Assembly (NCBI GenBank): GCA_021807595.1
Contig: JAKBCS010000036.1
Location: 1-39,693, forward strand
Direction of reading: 5' to 3'
DNA: 39,693 nt
Source of the DNA: Planctomycetota bacterium
GTDB lineage: Bacteria; Planctomycetota; Planctomycetia; Gemmatales; Gemmataceae
The notes beneath the pieces are model-generated. The model worked only from the letters and a program-made list of their open reading frames with translations. It searched no databases and was not told where the DNA came from. Of the stretch, positions 10,681 to 34,755 are shown piece after piece. How positions within the stretch are numbered: position 1 is the stretch's first letter; the number at the start of each line of letters is the position of its first letter. A program made the translations under genes and the position numbers.

Positions 10681-10713
10681 CTCTCGGTTCGTTTTTTGAA
10701 CCAACCCCACGAG

Positions 10714-12153
10714 ATGCCCGCCATGCCATTGCGCGATTACGTCTACCTTGGCACGACGCACAGCCTTTGTCCCCATTGTCGCCGGCTGGTAGCTGCCAAA
10801 ATCATCGTCCGCGACGGCCGCGTCTTTTTTCGCAAACGCTGTCCCGAACATGGACCGATCGAAGATCTTGTCTGCTCTGATGTCGCCTATTACGACCGTC
10901 ACGAATTCAGCCAGCCGGCTCGCGCGCCCTTGGCCTATGGAACCCATTCCGACAAAGGCTGCCCCTACGATTGCGGTCTGTGCCCCGAACACGAGCAGCA
11001 CACTTGCATCGCGCTGGTCGAGATAACAACCAATTGCAACCTGAAATGTCCGATGTGCTTCGCCGAGTCGGGTCCGGGCGGAAAGAACATCGACTTCGAG
11101 ACCTATCGCCACATGGTCGATCGCTACGTCGAGTTGGAAGGCGTGGCCGACGTGCTGCAACTGTCGGGCGGCGAGCCGACGCTGCATCCCGAACTCGTTC
11201 GCATGATCCGCTATGCCTACGAGCAGCCGATTCAAGCGGTGATGATTAACACCAACGGCATCCGTCTCGCCCACGATGCCGCCCTGGTCGAACAACTGGC
11301 CCCCATGCGCGACCGCCTGGAAATTTACCTGCAGTTCGACGGCTTGAGCGAACGCACCTATTCGACTTTGCGTGGAGAGGAGTTGCTGCAAACGAAATTG
11401 GCCGCATTGGAGATGCTGCAACGCTACGATTTACGCTGCACCCTCGTCTGCACCGTCGACCACAACACCAATTTGCACGAAGTCGGCGAGGTGCTGCATT
11501 TCGGCTTGAAACGACCGATCGTTCGCGGCGTCAGCTATCAATTGGCAACCTACTGTGGCCGACACCTCGACCCGCGTGATCTCGACCGCCGCGCCACCAT
11601 GCCGGACGTTGTGAAAGGACTCGTGGCGCAGACCCAGGGACTGGTGGCGGAAAGCGACTTCTACCCCCTGCCGTGCGCCCATCCGAACTGCCATTTGATG
11701 GCCTATCTCTATCGTGGCGGCGAGAAGCCAGTACCCATCAATCGACTCATCGACATTCGCAAACACATGGATTTGATCGCCAACAGTATCGTTTATACTC
11801 CCGCACGCGCCCGGCAGATCGTGGCCAGCTATCTCGACGGTGCTGGTGGGTGCGGTTGTGGACCCAATGGCTGCGGCCCTACCGATCCGTCTCTCGATGA
11901 GTTTGTCGTCAAGGCGCTCGCCGAGAAGATCAACGGCAGCGAGGTTTTCCGCATTACGCTGACCGCCTTTCTCGACGCGCACAATTTCGATACCCGCCGC
12001 GTTATGAAATGCTGTTTGGCCCATCTTTTGCCGAGCGGCCATGTCGTCCCCTTCTGCGCCTACAATACGCTCTATCGCGATGGCCATGTGCCGCTGCCTC
12101 CGTTGGTGGAGCCGACTCGCGAGAAAACGCATCGCCTGACGATGGTAACCTGA
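10714..12153 (+). CDS. Radical SAM protein of the tetraether lipid synthase (Tes/MJ0619) type
   Basis: 479 residues. The N-terminal metal-binding module has LCPHC (Cys19, Cys22) and RCPEHG (Cys43) around a short beta sheet, then KGCPYDCGLCPEHEQHTC with Cys83, 87, 90 and 98. The radical SAM cluster motif is CNLKCPMC (Cys108, 112, 115), followed by LQLSGGEPTLHPE. Further conserved cysteines are in PLPCAHPNCH (321, 326), a Gly/Cys insert GGCGCGPNGCG (380-387) and MKCCLAHLLPSGHVVPFCAYN-type sequence (433, 434, 448). This arrangement is that of the MJ0619/Tes family, whose archaeal members join the ends of isoprenoid lipid chains; several auxiliary clusters are expected. What the bacterial enzyme couples or modifies is not known from sequence. 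The ATG at 10714 or 10723 may start the protein. The Lgt-like gene begins one base after its stop. Confidence 0.85.
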   Translation: MPAMPLRDYVYLGTTHSLCPHCRRLVAAKIIVRDGRVFFRKRCPEHGPIEDLVCSDVAYYDRHEFSQPARAPLAYGTHSDKGCPYDCGLCPEHEQHTCIALVEITTNCNLKCPMCFAESGPGGKNIDFETYRHMVDRYVELEGVADVLQLSGGEPTLHPELVRMIRYAYEQPIQAVMINTNGIRLAHDAALVEQLAPMRDRLEIYLQFDGLSERTYSTLRGEELLQTKLAALEMLQRYDLRCTLVCTVDHNTNLHEVGEVLHFGLKRPIVRGVSYQLATYCGRHLDPRDLDRRATMPDVVKGLVAQTQGLVAESDFYPLPCAHPNCHLMAYLYRGGEKPVPINRLIDIRKHMDLIANSIVYTPARARQIVASYLDGAGGCGCGPNGCGPTDPSLDEFVVKALAEKINGSEVFRITLTAFLDAHNFDTRRVMKCCLAHLLPSGHVVPFCAYNTLYRDGHVPLPPLVEPTREKTHRLTMVT

Positions 12154-12154
12154 G

Positions 12155-12880
12155 ATGCCCTTCTACTACGCTTCGTTCATGCTTATGGCTATGGCCGTAT
12201 TTCTGACGGCGCGTTGGTATATCCCTAAGCCAGCGGGATTGCTCGTTCTGCCGCGTTGGAAGCGCGCGGTCTTGGCGGCGGCGGCGTTCGTAGGCGGCGC
12301 GCTTGGCGGAAAAGTACCGTTCTTGGGCACGCATCCTCTTGCTTGGTTCGATTTTCAGACGTGGGTGGCGGACGGCAAAACCATCGTCGCCGGACTGATC
12401 GGAGCCTACCTCGCCGTCGAACTGGCGAAATGGCTGTTGGAGGTTCGCGTCAAAACCGGCGACACCTTTGCTCTACCTCTAGCCTTGGCGCTGGCGATAG
12501 GCCGCTGGGGCTGTTATTTCAACGGCTGCTGCTACGGCGTCGAGACCGCTCTGCCTTGGGGCGCATGGTTCCGCGTGCGAACGGCGGACGGGTATCGACT
12601 CGTCCAATGCCATCCCACACAGATTTACGAGAGCCTGTTCCATTTCAGCATGGCGCTCGTGATCTGGCAACTCATGCAACGCCGATGGTTCCCCGGACAG
12701 CGATTGAAGATTTATTTGATCGCGTATGGAGTCTATCGTTTCCTGACCGAGTACATCCGCCCCGAACCGGAATGGTGGTTGGGCTTGACGTTCTATCAAT
12801 GGGCGGCACTCACCCTGGCAGCCGGCATGCTCGCCCAATGGATTTTGGAATATCGCCAGCGCGAACCGAGACTTGCCTGA
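12155..12880 (+). CDS. Lgt-family membrane protein with altered active site (prolipoprotein diacylglyceryl transferase paralogue)
   Basis: A 241-residue polytopic membrane protein of the Lgt fold. Conserved Lgt elements are AIGRWGC (Arg117), Asn123-Gly124, HPTQIYES (153-160) and YGVYRFLTEYIRPE. By comparison with E. coli Lgt from memory, the HGGLIG histidine is replaced (TIVAGLIGA, residues 77-85), Asn146 corresponds to Cys120 and Glu151 to Cys125 in CYFNGCC. These positions matter for catalysis in true Lgt, so this is unlikely to be the housekeeping lipoprotein enzyme. Paralogues with this CCYG motif are often annotated simply as Lgt. Its start is one base after the radical SAM stop, so the pair should be made together; I infer a joint role in membrane lipid or lipid-anchor modification. 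Confidence 0.85.
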   Translation: MPFYYASFMLMAMAVFLTARWYIPKPAGLLVLPRWKRAVLAAAAFVGGALGGKVPFLGTHPLAWFDFQTWVADGKTIVAGLIGAYLAVELAKWLLEVRVKTGDTFALPLALALAIGRWGCYFNGCCYGVETALPWGAWFRVRTADGYRLVQCHPTQIYESLFHFSMALVIWQLMQRRWFPGQRLKIYLIAYGVYRFLTEYIRPEPEWWLGLTFYQWAALTLAAGMLAQWILEYRQREPRLA

Positions 12881-13118: not shown

Positions 13119-13873
13119 TCAGGGTATTCTCCGACCTGCCTTCCCCACGAATTCGAGCAGGATCTTGCCGGGGGAATCGTCGGCTGCTCCCAGAAGGTGA
13201 TTGGCGGTAAAGTGGTCGCGGTTTTCCAAGAGGCGCGACTCGACCTTTCCTTTGGCCTTTTGAATTTGCTCGGCGGCTCGATGCGAAGCGCTGCCGCGTT
13301 CTACGGACGCAAAGAGAAATGCCGGTCCCTCCATCGCGTTCTTGGTATAGGTAAGCGGCGAAGCCTTTCGCCAGCCTTCCTCGGAACCGCCGAAGGTTTT
13401 CTCGATGTAATCGGCGTAGGCACCTCCCGCGCGAACTTTGGCAACCAGGTCGTATGCCCCTCCACTCCAGGCTACAACGCCTGCGATATCGGTGTGTTTC
13501 AGCTTCGCAACAGAAAGATACTTTGGATCGAGCGCGCACAGAGTCACAAGATGGCAACCGGGCGAGTGCCCCATCAGGAAGACCTTTTTGGATCGCCTCC
13601 AATCTCCTCGGCGCGATCGAAGGCCCAGCGTACCGCCGCGGCGACATCCTCGACATGAGCGGGGTGCTTGGCTGGCGGGGTAAGCCTATTGAGATTGTTT
13701 TGACATTTACTGCGCGCGGCGGCCTCGCGCACCTTTTGCACCGCAGGCAGGAGAAGGCCAATCAGGATAGTGATGATGGCGATGACCACCAACAACTCGA
13801 TCGGCGTGAAACCACAGCGAGGAAGAGTCGGAAACCTCAGCGTCTTTCGAGACATTCGCAACTCGCTTCTCAT
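13119..13873 (-). pseudogene. Chimeric pseudogene: DUF1559 N-terminus fused to a frameshifted alpha/beta hydrolase C-terminus
   Basis: The ATG at 13873, with GGAG six bases upstream, begins a typical DUF1559 protein: a prepilin-like [19 protein letters not shown] helix and [11 protein letters not shown]. After about residue 64 (near 13682) it changes in frame to [20 protein letters not shown], which is the middle of an alpha/beta hydrolase of the BD-FAE/esterase type, not DUF1559. That frame stops at 13574. The hydrolase continues in another frame from a T run (13585-13589 on the plus strand), giving a V-F-L-M-G-H-S-P-G nucleophile motif and about 150 further residues to 13119. One missing base in the run explains the shift. 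The DUF1559 C-terminal 250 residues and the hydrolase N-terminal part with the oxyanion HGG are absent. A deletion fusing two neighbours is the simplest account; the one-base shift could also be a sequencing error. Confidence 0.75.
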
Positions 13874-14059
13874 GCTTTTCTCCGGCGCAACTCTGTGATT
13901 CCTCTCTCGGAAACGGGAGAGCGAGCCTTGCAAGAGGCTCACGGCGTGTCGGTTCCAAATCCCCGGCGTTTTGCGTGAATTCCAAACGCGGGGGATTGGA
14001 AGCGAGGTCATTCGTTGGCCAGGACTGGTCGCGCGGGAGGCGCGCGCAAGTTGGATACG

Positions 14060-14462: not shown

Positions 14463-15428
14463 TCAATTACCCACAATCGTCGGCCAATCGACCACTTCGC
14501 CATTGGCGCGAGTTCCCAGCGCTTGGAACACCAGGTCCAGTGGCGCATAACTGCCGTCCGGGTTGTCGCTGGGCATGGTGAAGATGAAATGAACCGACCC
14601 ATCGGCGAACAGGAAGTTCGATCCACCGGGATGTTTACTTGAGAAATCGTCCATGCCCGCACTGCCGTCGCCATCGACGAGCGGATTGTTCCCGTGGGCG
14701 TGCGCCAAGACGAGGGTTGCAGCCGGATACCAGGCACCGGGCACGTTCGGCTGACAGGGGTTGTCTCGACCTCGTTCGATAACGCCGTTCGGGATCGCAC
14801 CTACCCAGGTTCCGTTGGCGTTCGACCAAGCGCGTTCGCCGACCAAGATCGTTTGACTGGTCCCATCGGTGATGTCGGTGATCCGCGTGCGACTATTGCG
14901 GTACAAGACGCCCAGGCCCGTGGGAGCGGTTGTGTCCGAGGCATCGCTTCCGCAACAGGCGGCGTAACTGGTGGGAGCCGCTTGACAGATGGGATCGCCG
15001 AATCCATCTGGGATCGAAAAGGCTCGCATCGGGTACAGGTCGGAAGGACACAAGTATCCTTTTACCAAAGTCCCGATTCCCGACGAGTTCTGGACGGCCC
15101 GATCGAATCGGAATTGACGGTAGAGGTTGTCTTGTTCGAGATACGGCAAGACGAAGGTAGCCCAGCTCCAACCCGGTGCCGTGTCGGCGGCACCATCGGC
15201 ATAGGTCAAAGTCGCCCAATATCCGGGCGGAAATCCCTGCTGGACATCGTGATAATTGTGCAGCGCCAACCCCATTTGTTTGAGGTTATTCATGCACTGC
15301 CCGCGCGCGGCTGACTCGCGCACTTTCTGTACGGCAGGCAACAGTAGGCCGATCAGGATAGCCAAGATGGCGAGGACGATCAGCAACTCGATCGGGGTGA
15401 ACGCAATTCGTTCGATTCGCGCGCGCAC
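14463..15428 (-). CDS. DUF1559 domain protein with type II secretion/prepilin-like N-terminus
   Basis: 321 residues. The N-terminus has a prepilin-type cleavage and methylation motif (AFTPIELLIVLAILAILIG) and a single hydrophobic helix, followed by the DUF1559 signatures AARGQCMNNLKQMGLALHNYHD and GFPPGYW, and near the end FLFADGSVHFI. Such proteins are highly multiplied in planctomycetes and are thought to be exported and possibly pseudopilin-like; the job is unknown. Start is GTG at 15428 with AAAGGAG nine bases upstream. It heads an operon with the HEAT lipoprotein and diverges from hemP across a 268-base region that contains a Fur-like site, so iron could influence it too. Confidence 0.92.
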   Translation of the reverse strand: MRARIERIAFTPIELLIVLAILAILIGLLLPAVQKVRESAARGQCMNNLKQMGLALHNYHDVQQGFPPGYWATLTYADGAADTAPGWSWATFVLPYLEQDNLYRQFRFDRAVQNSSGIGTLVKGYLCPSDLYPMRAFSIPDGFGDPICQAAPTSYAACCGSDASDTTAPTGLGVLYRNSRTRITDITDGTSQTILVGERAWSNANGTWVGAIPNGVIERGRDNPCQPNVPGAWYPAATLVLAHAHGNNPLVDGDGSAGMDDFSSKHPGGSNFLFADGSVHFIFTMPSDNPDGSYAPLDLVFQALGTRANGEVVDWPTIVGN

Positions 15429-26645: not shown

Positions 26646-29432
26646 ATGGCAGAAAGTATCCGGGGGAGCAGTCGCGGCGTCGAGGCACCGGTTCACGGCG
26701 GCAACGGCGAAAGCGGGGCGCATCCCAACGGCAGTAACGGACATCTTCCAAGCGATGGAGTCGATGGCGTTCGCGACATCGATCCCATTGAAACGAGAGA
26801 ATGGCTCGACGCGCTCGATGCCGTGTTACAAACCGGCGGCGAAGAACGCGGGCAGTTCCTGCTCAGTCAACTGAAAAACAAAGCCGTGCGCGGCGGCGTC
26901 GAGATCCCCTTCACCGCAAATACCCCTTACATCAACACCCTCCCCCTTTCGCGGCAGCCTCTCTTCCCCGGCAACCGCGAGATGGAACGGCGCATCAAAA
27001 GCCTGATCCGTTGGAATGCCATGGCGATGGTCGTTCACGCCAACAAAGAAGATTCGACTATCGGAGGCCACATCGCCACCTTCGCCTCGTCCGCCACACT
27101 TTACGAAGTCGGATTCAATCACTTCTTCAAAGGCCCCGACCACGGCGACGGCTCCGACATCGTGTATTTTCAGGGCCATGCCTCGCCGGGAATCTACGCC
27201 CGCGCCTTCCTCGAAGGACGCCTTAATGAGGCGCATTTATACAACTTCCGCCGTGAGTTGCGCGAAGGCGGCGGTCTGTCGTCTTATCCGCATCCGTGGC
27301 TGATGCCAAATTTCTGGCAATTCCCCACGGTGTCGATGGGACTCGGCCCGATTATGAGCATCTACCAGGCGCGCTTCAATCGCTACCTGGAGCATCGCGG
27401 ACTTAAGGAAACCTCGAATCAAAAAGTCTGGGCATTCTTGGGCGACGGAGAATGCGACGAGCCGGAGACTTTGGGAGCGATCACGCTCGCCTCGCGCGAG
27501 AAACTCGACAACCTCATCTGGGTCATCAACTGCAATTTGCAGCGCCTCGATGGCCCAGTGCGCGGCAATGGCAAGATCATTCAAGAGTTGGAGGCGGCCT
27601 TCCGCGGCGCGGGATGGAACTGCATCAAAGTCATCTGGGGCAGCGATTGGGATACTCTGCTCGAGCGCGACAAGTCGGGCCTGCTCGTGCAGCGCATGGG
27701 CGAAGTCGTCGATGGCGAGTTTCAGAAATACACAGTCGAGGGCGGCGCGTATATCCGCGAACACTTCTTCGGCAAATATCCAGAACTGCTCAGACTCGTC
27801 GAGAATCTGTCCGACGATCAGTTGTGCAAGCTCAAACGCGGCGGGCATGATCCGGTCAAGGTCTACGCGGCGTATAAGGCCGCCGTCGAACATCGCGGCC
27901 AGCCTACCGTCATCCTCGCTCACACCGTTAAAGGCTACGGCATGGGCGACGCCGCCGAGGGCAAAAATGTCGCCCATCAGACCAAGAAAGTCGAAGCGAA
28001 ATACCTCCTCGAATTCCGCAATCGCTTCGGTCTGAGCGTCTCCGACGAGACGGTGAACAAGGTCGGATTCTACAAGCCGCCGGATGATTCCAACGATCTA
28101 AAATATCTCCATAAACGTCGGAAAGACCTGGGCGGCTATCTGCCGGTTCGCAAGGTCGAGTGCCCCACACTCAAAGCGCCCGCCGTCGAGTTCGTACAGA
28201 ACTACGTCAAGGGCAGCGGTACCAAGGAACTATCCACGACGATCGCCTTCGTCGATATGCTCGGTCGGCTGCTCAAGGACAAGGAACTCGGCAAGTGGAT
28301 CGTGCCGATCATCCCCGACGAAGCTCGTACCTTCGGCATGGACCCGTTTTTCGCCAGCTACAAGATTTACTCGAATGTCGGCCAACTGTACGAGCCGGTC
28401 GATGCCCAGTTTCATGCAGCGGCCTATCGAGAGGCCAAGAACGGGCAAATCCTCGAAGAAGGCATCACCGAAGCCGGCTCCATCTCGTCGTTCATCGCCG
28501 CCGGTTCCGCCTATTCGACGCACGGCGTCCCGACGATTCCCTTCTTCATTTACTATTCGATGTTCGGCTTCCAGCGCATCGGTGATTTACTCTGGGCCGC
28601 CGCCGACATGCGGACGCGCGGGTTCCTTCTTGGCGCGACGGCGGGGCGGACGACGCTCAACGGCGAAGGTTTGCAGCACGAAGACGGACACAGCCTCGTT
28701 CATGCCTCGACGATCCCCAACCTCATTTGTTACGACCCGGCCTACGCCTACGAATTGGCCGTCATCGTCCGCGACGGCATTCGCCGCATGTACGAGCAAG
28801 TGACGGAAGACCACTTCTATTACATCACGCTCTACAACGAGAATTACGCGATGGGAGCGATGCCGGGCGATGCCACCGACGGCATCCTCAAGGGACTGTA
28901 CAAGCTGCGTCCCGGCTCGGCCAAAAGCAAACTGCCCAAGGTTCACTTGTTCGGCAGCGGCCCGATCCTGTTGCACGCGCTGCGGGCCCAAGAATTGCTC
29001 GCCGAGCATTTCGGCGTCAACGCCGAAGTATGGAGCGCCACCAGTTACCGCGAGTTGCGGCGCGACGCCTTGGAGGCGGAGCGTTGGAACATGCTGCACC
29101 CGCAGCAGCCACCGCGACAAAGCTATCTGGAACAGTTGCTGAAGCCGGAACAGGGCGGCGTCTTCCTAGCGGCCAGCGATTTCATCCGCCAAGTGCCGGA
29201 GATGATTTCCCGCTGGGTTCCGGGCGGCCTGTTCTCGCTGGGAACCGATGGCTTTGGCCGCAGCGAGACGCGCGCGGCCCTGCGGCGACATTTCGAAGTC
29301 GATGCCGAGTCCATCGTCGTGGCGGCGCTCTGGCAACTCGCCCTGCGCAACGCCGTCAAGCCGTCCGTCGTCCAACAGGCCATGCAAAAGTTCGACATCA
29401 ACCCGGAAAAGATCAGTCCCATGCGGGCTTAA
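26646..29432 (+). CDS. aceE: Pyruvate dehydrogenase E1 component (homodimeric type)
   Basis: 928 residues. It decarboxylates pyruvate and passes the acetyl group to the lipoyl arm of E2. The single-chain bacterial type is shown by GGHIATFASSATLYEVGFNH (141-160), the thiamine diphosphate motif GDGECDEPETLGAI (266-279) closed by NCN (295-297), and GATAGRTTLNGEGLQHEDGHS further on. The first 45 residues are rich in Gly, Ser and Asn and have no counterpart I recognise; E. coli AceE has 887 residues, so this is a modest N-terminal extension. The start ATG has GGGAG seven bases upstream. It is followed by a palindrome and then E2. No E3 gene is in the window. Confidence 0.97.
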   Translation: MAESIRGSSRGVEAPVHGGNGESGAHPNGSNGHLPSDGVDGVRDIDPIETREWLDALDAVLQTGGEERGQFLLSQLKNKAVRGGVEIPFTANTPYINTLPLSRQPLFPGNREMERRIKSLIRWNAMAMVVHANKEDSTIGGHIATFASSATLYEVGFNHFFKGPDHGDGSDIVYFQGHASPGIYARAFLEGRLNEAHLYNFRRELREGGGLSSYPHPWLMPNFWQFPTVSMGLGPIMSIYQARFNRYLEHRGLKETSNQKVWAFLGDGECDEPETLGAITLASREKLDNLIWVINCNLQRLDGPVRGNGKIIQELEAAFRGAGWNCIKVIWGSDWDTLLERDKSGLLVQRMGEVVDGEFQKYTVEGGAYIREHFFGKYPELLRLVENLSDDQLCKLKRGGHDPVKVYAAYKAAVEHRGQPTVILAHTVKGYGMGDAAEGKNVAHQTKKVEAKYLLEFRNRFGLSVSDETVNKVGFYKPPDDSNDLKYLHKRRKDLGGYLPVRKVECPTLKAPAVEFVQNYVKGSGTKELSTTIAFVDMLGRLLKDKELGKWIVPIIPDEARTFGMDPFFASYKIYSNVGQLYEPVDAQFHAAAYREAKNGQILEEGITEAGSISSFIAAGSAYSTHGVPTIPFFIYYSMFGFQRIGDLLWAAADMRTRGFLLGATAGRTTLNGEGLQHEDGHSLVHASTIPNLICYDPAYAYELAVIVRDGIRRMYEQVTEDHFYYITLYNENYAMGAMPGDATDGILKGLYKLRPGSAKSKLPKVHLFGSGPILLHALRAQELLAEHFGVNAEVWSATSYRELRRDALEAERWNMLHPQQPPRQSYLEQLLKPEQGGVFLAASDFIRQVPEMISRWVPGGLFSLGTDGFGRSETRAALRRHFEVDAESIVVAALWQLALRNAVKPSVVQQAMQKFDINPEKISPMRA

Positions 29433-29537: not shown

Positions 29538-30869
29538 ATGGCGAGTGAGATTAAGCTGCAAGCGCTCAAGGAGAACGTCGATACCGTCGAGGTGAACGCG
29601 ATCAAGGTGTCGGCGGGCGAAGTGGTGGCCAAGGATCAGGCGTTGTTGGAAGTGCAAGCCGACAAAGCCGCGTTGGAAGTACCGTCGCCGATGGCCGGGC
29701 GCGTCACCAAGATTCTCGTCAAGCCCGGCGATCAAATCAACATCGGCCAGGTGTACTGCGTGATCGACGGCGGCAACGGCGAGTCGGTCGCCGCCGCGCC
29801 GGCGAAAGCTGCGACGACTGCCGCACGCCCACTGGAAGCCGTTCCGGTCGCGATAAAAGAGCCGTCGGCCGCGGCGCGCCCCGTCGCCGTCCAGCCGTTA
29901 CACAAACCGCAACAGCCGATCATCGACCGCCCCTCACCCGCGCCGCCTCCCGCTCAAGAAAAGATTGTCCCCGCCGGTCCCGCCACCCGCCGACTGGCCC
30001 GCGAGTTCGGCGTCGATCTCAAGAACGTCACCGGCAGCGGACGGCATGGCCGCGTTGTCGAGGAAGACATCAAAGAGTACGTTCGCCAACTCGCTTCCGG
30101 AACGGGATTGGGAACGGGTCTCGCCGGACCCAACGGCGGCGCGCCGATGCAGGCACCGCCTTTGCCGAATTTCGAGCAGTGGGGCACCATCGACTCGCAA
30201 CCGCTGGGAGCGGTGCGCAAAGCGACGGCCCGACAGATGAGTTTGGCTTGGAGCCTCATCCCCCACGTCACACAGCACGATCTCGCCGACATCACCGACT
30301 TGGAAGCGTTCCGCAGGCAGCAATCCGACGGCAAAGGTCCGAAGTTGACCGTGACGGCATTCGTCCTCCGCGCCTGTGCCATCGCACTGCGCGAGTTTCC
30401 GACCTTCAACTCCAGCCTCGATCTGTCCGGCGGACGATTGATCCTCAAGCGCTACTATCACATCGGCGTGGCGGTAGATACCGAAGGCGGTCTGCTCGTG
30501 CCGGTACTGCGCGATGTGGACAAGAAACACGTCCGCGAATTGGGCGAGGAACTGAACGCCATCGCCCAGCGCGCCCGCGATCGCAAGCTCGACTCGGCGG
30601 AGTTGAAGGGTGGCACGTTCACAATCACAAACCTGGGCGGCATCGGCGGCACGGCCTTCACGCCGATCGTTAATTATCCCGAAGTGGCAATTTTGGGGAT
30701 CTCGCGTAGCCGACTCGAACCCGTGGTGCGCGGCGGACAGATTGTGCCCCGCTTGATAATGCCGTTGTCGCTATCCTACGATCACCGCGTCATCGACGGA
30801 GCAGCGGCGGCGCGCTTCACCCGCAGACTCGCCGACCTCCTGGAGAATCCGTTGATGATGTTGCTGTAA
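29538..30869 (+). CDS. aceF: Pyruvate dehydrogenase E2 component (dihydrolipoyl acetyltransferase)
   Basis: 443 residues: one lipoyl domain with the modified lysine in QADKAAL (Lys43), a long Pro/Ala-rich linker (about 80-145), an E1/E3-binding domain (PATRRLAREFGVDLKNVTGS to about 180), and the acetyltransferase core with the catalytic LSYDHRVIDG (His416, Asp420). A single lipoyl domain contrasts with the three of E. coli. It transfers the acetyl group from E1 to CoA. The ribosome site (TAGGGTG) is weak, and the gene lies 105 bases after aceE with a palindrome between. Lipoylation would need LipA, which is encoded 3 kb downstream. Confidence 0.95.
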   Translation: MASEIKLQALKENVDTVEVNAIKVSAGEVVAKDQALLEVQADKAALEVPSPMAGRVTKILVKPGDQINIGQVYCVIDGGNGESVAAAPAKAATTAARPLEAVPVAIKEPSAAARPVAVQPLHKPQQPIIDRPSPAPPPAQEKIVPAGPATRRLAREFGVDLKNVTGSGRHGRVVEEDIKEYVRQLASGTGLGTGLAGPNGGAPMQAPPLPNFEQWGTIDSQPLGAVRKATARQMSLAWSLIPHVTQHDLADITDLEAFRRQQSDGKGPKLTVTAFVLRACAIALREFPTFNSSLDLSGGRLILKRYYHIGVAVDTEGGLLVPVLRDVDKKHVRELGEELNAIAQRARDRKLDSAELKGGTFTITNLGGIGGTAFTPIVNYPEVAILGISRSRLEPVVRGGQIVPRLIMPLSLSYDHRVIDGAAAARFTRRLADLLENPLMMLL

Positions 30870-33867: not shown

Positions 33868-34755
33868 CTATAGAGCTTCGCCTACCATTTCATCGGCGTG
33901 ATAGCTGGAGCGCACGAAGGGACCGGCCACCACTTTCCGAAATCCCAGCGTCCGCGCTCGCGCGGCCAACTCGTCGAACTCTTCCGGCGGAACGTAGCGA
34001 GCTACGGGAATGTGTTTCAGCGTGGGCGCGAGATATTGGCCCAGTGTCAGCGTATCGCAACCAACGGCGCGGAGGTCGGCCAAAACGTCGAACAGTTCTT
34101 CGATCGTCTCCCCGATTCCGAGCATGAGGCCGCTTTTTGTTACCGTTTGGGGCGAACGCCGTTTGACGTGCGCCAGCAAGTCGAGACTGCGCTGATACGA
34201 AGCACGGCCTCGCACTTTCTTGTACAATCGCGGCACCGTCTCCATGTTGTGATTGAACACTTCGGGCCGCGCTTCCAGCACGCGATCGACGGCCGACAGA
34301 TCGCCGAGAAAGTCCGGCGTCAGCACTTCGACGACGGCTCCGGTGCGTTCGCGGACGGCGAGAATGCAGCGGCGGAAATGGTCCGCGCCACCGTCGGGGA
34401 GATCGTCGCGCGTCACCGACGTGATGACGACGTGCTTCAACCCCAGCCGATGCGCCGCCTCGGCGACGCGGGCCGGTTCGTCATCTTCGAGATCGTCGGG
34501 CCTTCCTTTGGGCACAGAACAGAATCCGCACGGGCGCGTGCAGACGTTGCCGAGAATCATAAAGGTAGCGGTGCGGCGCGAGTAACACTCCGGGCGATTG
34601 GGACAGCGGGCGTTCTCGCAAACCGTCTCTAAACGCAATTCGCGCAGAAGGTCGTGGGTGAAGAAATTCCCATTGCCGCGCGGCAGCCGGCGCTTGAGCC
34701 ACGCGGGCAAGCGCCGCGGCGGAGCGGACCCATCAATCGTCGGCAAAGACAGCAT
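33868..34755 (-). CDS. lipA: Lipoyl synthase
   Basis: 295 residues, a radical SAM enzyme that inserts two sulfurs into protein-bound octanoyl groups. The auxiliary-cluster cysteines are in CENARCPNRPEC (46, 51, 57), the radical SAM cluster is CTRPCGFC (72, 76, 79), and the C-terminal serine ligand is in the RSSYHA motif. Length and order match the family. The ATG has GAGAGG about seven bases upstream. Its product is needed by the E2 lipoyl domain (aceF) and other lipoyl enzymes. No octanoyl transferase (LipB) is in the window, so the supply of the octanoyl group comes from elsewhere. Confidence 0.97.
   Translation of the reverse strand: MLSLPTIDGSAPPRRLPAWLKRRLPRGNGNFFTHDLLRELRLETVCENARCPNRPECYSRRTATFMILGNVCTRPCGFCSVPKGRPDDLEDDEPARVAEAAHRLGLKHVVITSVTRDDLPDGGADHFRRCILAVRERTGAVVEVLTPDFLGDLSAVDRVLEARPEVFNHNMETVPRLYKKVRGRASYQRSLDLLAHVKRRSPQTVTKSGLMLGIGETIEELFDVLADLRAVGCDTLTLGQYLAPTLKHIPVARYVPPEEFDELAARARTLGFRKVVAGPFVRSSYHADEMVGEAL

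Follow-up and report, generated by a model that had tools for sequence, protein, structure and literature searches.

The window, a stretch of 39,693 nucleotides of planctomycete DNA, carries a radical SAM gene followed by a gene encoding an Lgt-like membrane protein, here called LGT2, and judged from sequence and gene neighbourhoods the two form a dedicated, co-inherited two-gene module. The radical SAM protein (P0001) is predicted to be a Tes-fold enzyme in its own clade beside TrsS and Tes. LGT2 (P0002) belongs to an Lgt paralog clade that family searches do not separate from the lipoprotein enzyme. In related radical SAM clades, a soluble ArsM-like (DVU_1556-type) methyltransferase is found in place of LGT2.

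The features of the locus are listed in Table 1. As the first-pass annotation had described, the two genes lie on the same strand and are separated by one base (12154); the radical SAM frame is also open from an upstream TTG at 10696. A tRNA-Arg gene downstream and a WD40-type gene upstream are both on the opposite strand, so the unit in this genome consists of the radical SAM and LGT2 genes. A promoter and terminator scan gave no signal exceeding chance. The closest named relatives of the window are Planctomycetota. Elsewhere in the window, open reading frames at 13574-14011 and 14463-15428 encode a prepilin-like segment (one of them FTPIELLIVLAI) of a type common in planctomycetes, and the genes for pyruvate dehydrogenase E1 (aceE, 26646-29432), a 2-oxoacid dehydrogenase acyltransferase (29538-30869) and lipoyl synthase (33868-34755) span about 8 kb and are an ordinary lipoate/PDH neighbourhood.

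Table 1. Features of the radical SAM/LGT2 locus and domains of the radical SAM protein.
Feature	Position	Strand	Details
TrsS/Tes-superfamily radical SAM gene (P0001)	10714..12153	+	479 aa; ATG at 10714, stop TGA at 12151-12153
LGT2 gene (P0002)	12155..12880	+	Membrane protein, 241 aa; ATG at 12155, stop ends at 12880
Cysteine loop CGCGPNGC in P0001	11851..11874	+	C380, C382, C387
P0001, N-terminal domain			Zinc-ribbon/rubredoxin-like
P0001, N-terminal [4Fe-4S] motif			CPYDCGLCPEH
P0001, radical SAM core			C108x3C112x2C115
P0001, putative C-terminal cluster cysteines			C326, C433, C448
P0001, extra cysteine loop			Residues 380-387

The superfamilies named in the first-pass annotation, radical SAM and the Lgt fold, agreed with the Pfam and PDB matches. 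For P0001, the Pfam matches were Zn_ribbon_HMPTM (9.9e-19) and Radical_SAM (6.5e-18), and the best solved relatives in a PDB search were Tes structures 7TOL/7TOM (1.3e-74). The predicted model of P0001 matched 7TOM with Z 50 and an rmsd of 2.2 over 417 residues, that is, the Tes fold along the whole chain. The cysteine layout on which a Tes-type assignment had been based is present as written (C19xxC22...C43PEH46G, GC83PYDC87GLC90PEH93EQHTC98, C108NLKC112PMC115F and PFC448AYN), but this layout is a mark of a wider superfamily, in which several unnamed clades stand beside Tes and TrsS, and on its own is not enough to identify Tes. Against the NCBIfam models, P0001 scored 302.6 bits with Tes (NF045702; equivalog cut-off 450 bits) and 341.4 bits with TrsS (NF045646; equivalog cut-off 490 bits), the latter being the closest model. 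With the Tes model, Tes-type proteins from two planctomycete genomes and two archaeal ones reached 571-698 bits. The two planctomycete proteins (L100, G055:C58; L104, G033:C142) scored 577 bits each and are Tes-type sequences in bacteria, unlike P0001.

In the maximum-likelihood tree, P0001 was one of 13 planctomycete members of a group termed clade A (support 100), well removed from the Tes rows; the latter comprised MJ0619 (partial sequence), archaeal proteins over the Tes cut-off and the two planctomycete proteins over that cut-off; the trees were quick searches with SH-aLRT as the only branch support. A topology joining clade A and Tes as a single clade was 331 log units worse and was rejected (AU p 2.5e-38); a position outside the Tes clade is what the first-pass annotation had itself named as refuting its reading. 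After TrsS of Bacillota was added, TrsS lay nearer to Tes and the window group stayed apart. The nine TrsS-type rows, of which the five scored were all over the cut-off, formed a clade grouped with Tes and not with the window. Six true TrsS proteins of Bacillota scored 552-701 bits with the TrsS model, and the sixth of them, L282, is also among these rows; no TrsS over the cut-off was found in 121 Chloroflexota. TrsS, a radical SAM (seleno)protein, resembles the P0001 group in being its closest model, in having a probable selenocysteine-bearing relative there and in being paired with a second enzyme, but true TrsS lies in another clade and mostly near a DVU_1556-like methyltransferase, not LGT2. 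P0001 itself is below the TrsS cut-off and outside the clade of true TrsS.

Met439 and Tyr459 are strictly conserved in 1,000 archaeal Tes sequences, and both positions tolerate mutation (PMC9433317). In the alignment their counterparts in P0001 are Thr417 and His437, with the Tes numbering taken from first-cysteine C9 in PMC9433317 and the structure-search alignment of P0001 and Tes. The Met439 column holds Met in 6/6 Tes rows and Thr in 13/13 clade A members, and the Tyr459 column holds Tyr in 5/6 Tes rows and mostly His in clade A. Since both positions are mutation-tolerant, these replacements are a mark of membership and no proof of a different reaction. The earlier Tes-type claim was thus supported for the superfamily and not supported for Tes in the functional sense (303 vs 450 bits, both residues replaced, position outside the Tes clade); judged by family tree and key residues, P0001 is not a Tes.

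The metal-site ligands of Tes are kept in P0001, namely C19, C22, C43 and H46 of the rubredoxin site, C83, C87 and C90 plus a His of the N-terminal cluster, the radical SAM triad C108, C112 and C115, and the C-terminal C326, C433 and C448. Fold, rubredoxin-like site, N-terminal [4Fe-4S] motif, triad and C-terminal cysteines are therefore what P0001 has in common with Tes (GDGT-MAS, MJ0619), while its separate clade, its score below the cut-off, the lack of Met439/Tyr459 equivalents, the additional conserved C98, C321 and C434, the cysteine loop and the co-inherited partner gene set it apart. C326, C433 and C448 correspond to C-terminal cluster-region cysteines present in 6/6 Tes rows, and because they are lost together they are read as probable ligands of a C-terminal cluster in P0001: over 129 sequences, all three were present in 60, none in 47 and C326 alone in 21, and C433 and C448 disagreed once. 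C433 and C448, often with C326, are missing throughout clade B and, by separate loss, from L114 and L116 of clade A, and LGT2 is retained in clade B and L114 despite this loss. The C-terminal cluster of Tes holds a radical intermediate (PMC9433317). As the cluster cysteines can be lost while LGT2 is kept, Tes-like storage of a lipid radical on this cluster cannot be the chemistry of the whole family, although P0001 itself could still use it.

C98, C321, C434 and a loop with at least two cysteines, located between C326 and the C-terminal domain, are conserved in clade A, clade B and the methyltransferase-paired clade; these cysteines are largely absent from Tes, and the loop is absent from it. 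Conceivably the extra cysteines form a further cluster. In the closest relative from the first phylum sample (G115; L061:9396, G115:C293), an in-frame TGA in this loop is aligned with C387 of P0001 and probably encodes selenocysteine. A SelB gene over the cut-off is present in the G115 genome and in the window genome, and a candidate hairpin lies 3' of the TGA.

P0002 matched the Pfam LGT family (PF01790) at 1.2e-29 (103.8 bits), and its best solved relative was E. coli Lgt (5AZB, 2.3e-6), the phosphatidylglycerol-prolipoprotein diacylglyceryl transferase. Its score with the NCBIfam lgt model TIGR00544 was 59.6 bits, under the equivalog cut-off of 118.9 bits, and its predicted model matched 5AZB with Z 14.2 and an rmsd of 4.3 over 227 residues. 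A canonical Lgt is encoded separately, on a different contig of the window genome. In the tree, 69 LGT2 rows from eight phyla were split from 17 canonical Lgt rows (SH-aLRT 99), and the canonical Lgts of several LGT2-bearing genomes were on the canonical side of the branch, ruling out LGT2 as a second canonical Lgt. Fold and membrane topology are shared with the E. coli enzyme, and equivalents of R143, R239 and Y235 were found in all LGT2 rows (R143 and R239 in 66/66) and of D129 in nearly all; R143 and R239 bind phosphatidylglycerol in E. coli Lgt. In contrast, LGT2 has its own signature (VExxK...TGD), with E89, K92, D103, R117, Y191 and R195 invariant or near-invariant, and the position of E. 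coli H103 is Val in P0002 and mostly Val, Leu, Met or Ile across LGT2. This loss of H103 may weakly suggest that the acceptor is already a good nucleophile and not a lipoprotein cysteine; the sign is weak because true Lgts also vary here, the window's canonical Lgt having Tyr. N146C and E151C are shared with the window's canonical Lgt and hence not specific to LGT2, and the GRxGC and GCC motifs were ruled out as a mark of LGT2 for the same reason.

Genome-wide co-occurrence was determined in two evenly drawn samples, Planctomycetota (294 genomes) and Bacteroidota (148 genomes). The radical SAM protein was present in 28/28 LGT2 genomes of Planctomycetota (Fisher p 3.7e-28) and in 13/14 of Bacteroidota (Fisher p 1.3e-16; one genome with both genes unlinked), where the tests ignore shared ancestry and the score cut-offs (143 bits and above, 160 bits and above) were placed at score gaps after inspection. 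Adjacent pairs were also observed in Bacillota, Chloroflexota, Cyanobacteriota, Acidobacteriota, Pseudomonadota and Armatimonadota. Among planctomycete loci, both genes were found in 7/7 of clade A (one pair 3.5 kb apart) and 18/19 of clade B, the order being radical SAM gene then LGT2 in clade A and mostly the reverse in clade B. Synteny in both gene orders together with co-occurrence rules out chance adjacency. The check proposed with the first-pass annotation, whether planctomycetes and other phyla conserve the pair, came out in its favour. In eight further loci from the window's genus, family and class, LGT2 was within about 1.5 kb in five, and one of those lacking it is truncated. LGT2 was not seen near clade A members L110, L112, L115 and L116 in the available DNA, nor within 1.5 kb in G482 and G466. 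Neither clade A nor the comparison across phyla showed a third conserved gene in the neighbourhoods around the matches. A small membrane protein 3' of the radical SAM gene occurs in some clade B loci only, of Bacteroidota, Cyanobacteriota and Bacilli (L158:7386-7655, L178:7420-7770, L175:7386-7586).

In a GTDB-wide set of 80 loci, LGT2 was nearby in 45 and the DVU_1556-type methyltransferase in 26, and no locus had both beside the gene; the other nine had neither in the available flanking DNA, several being at contig ends. The partner changes between LGT2 and methyltransferase at least three times on the tree. In Bacillota, LGT2 adjoins the radical SAM gene in three genomes and TrsS-type loci are mostly with the methyltransferase, which also adjoins true TrsS in Clostridia-type genomes; Ktedonosporobacter has one copy of each kind, LGT2-paired and methyltransferase-paired. 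The methyltransferase scored 112 bits with the arsenite methyltransferase model NF008823 and has cysteines conserved at five columns. Two archaeal genomes (G294, L191/L208; G295, L192/L207) each carry, besides a Tes over the cut-off, another radical SAM gene that is TrsS-like and adjoins a DVU_1556-type methyltransferase. The exchange of LGT2 for the methyltransferase suggests that both work on what the radical SAM enzyme uses or produces.

For the function of the module, we tentatively favour, at less than even confidence, a two-enzyme system in which LGT2, predicted to bind phosphatidylglycerol, handles the product or the lipid substrate of the radical SAM enzyme. The radical SAM enzyme would modify a hydrophobic or lipid-like substrate by radical chemistry, LGT2 would supply or transfer a phosphatidylglycerol-derived (diacylglyceryl) group to the product, and LGT2 and the ArsM-like methyltransferase would be alternative capping or second-step enzymes in the same slot; the acceptor could be a lipid, a thiol/selenol or a metalloid. 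The soluble methyltransferase of the sister clades could have a non-lipid substrate, and so could the radical SAM enzyme, and some clade A members are without LGT2 in the DNA examined; both points count against this two-enzyme capping. A narrower form, in which the radical SAM enzyme makes a non-protein acceptor to which LGT2 transfers a diacylglyceryl group, this acceptor being methylated instead in methyltransferase-carrying phyla, is unlikely, and if true it would represent an undescribed class of diacylglyceryl conjugate. Slightly less improbable than this form is a modification of lipid tails or head groups other than coupling (e.g., dehydrogenation, thiolation or methylation) in which LGT2 would be a membrane subunit that presents the lipid and not a transferase. 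It is consistent with the presence in LGT2 of the phosphatidylglycerol-binding arginines without H103, with the dispensability of the C-terminal cluster cysteines in much of the family and with the lipid pocket of a solved Tes-fold relative (PMC9433317), but E89, K92, D103, R117, Y191 and R195 resemble an active site that a mere presenter would not need, and the replacement of LGT2 in sister clades, the methyltransferase, is catalytic. That the module changes membrane lipids or a lipid anchor, as first proposed, is possible and among the leading readings.

The arsenite methyltransferase-related partner with its conserved cysteines, the conserved cysteine loop with a probable selenocysteine in one relative and the DVU_1556-like methyltransferase beside true TrsS would also fit an ArsS/ArsM-like conjugation of metal(loids) or soft nucleophiles, in which the substrate of the radical SAM enzyme is a thiol, selenol or metalloid species that then receives a methyl (ArsM-like partner) or diacylglyceryl (LGT2) cap. 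This is a doubtful reading, as the ArsM likeness is at domain level and inspection of a few neighbourhoods by eye revealed no recognisable metal-resistance gene. Still less probable is Tes-type chemistry, in which lipid tails would be coupled through C-C bonds to membrane-spanning bacterial lipids with LGT2 feeding phosphatidylglycerol. P0001 shares the Tes fold over its whole chain and keeps C326, C433 and C448, and a role as brGDGT enzymes has been proposed for bacterial homologues of Tes (PMC8941075). However, P0001 lies outside the Tes clade, has Thr417 and His437 and an extra cysteine loop, C433/C448 are lost in clade B, L114 and L116 with LGT2 kept in clade B and L114, and two archaeal genomes hold a true Tes plus a protein of the other type. 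If the Tes reading held, Mss, a bacterial membrane-spanning lipid synthase (PMC13274423), would be the analogue in lipid-coupling chemistry. Maturation of a lipoprotein or peptide, with LGT2 lipidating a cysteine of a peptide modified by the radical SAM enzyme, is very improbable: LGT2 is homologous to Lgt, but no conserved third gene could serve as precursor peptide save the small membrane protein of some clade B loci, sister clades use a methyltransferase, and the C-terminal domain is Tes-type, the better family matches including no SPASM model.

Both TrsS and bacterial homologues of Tes have been described before. No report of a pairing with an Lgt-type protein was found in the open-access literature searched. 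Genomic arguments that membrane-spanning lipids may be made by planctomycetes and Chloroflexota draw on bacterial Tes homologues from BLAST searches at loose thresholds (PMC8941075, PMC11868695), and many of these matches may belong to non-Tes families paired with LGT2 or the methyltransferase. The module was found in the culturable genera Paenibacillus, Pedobacter, Chryseobacterium, Mucilaginibacter and Hymenobacter, so its function is accessible to gene deletion and lipidomics. In addition, five planctomycete contigs (L085, L088, L089, L095 and L096) each carry at least two divergent Tes/TrsS-superfamily radical SAM genes, a further unnamed branch.
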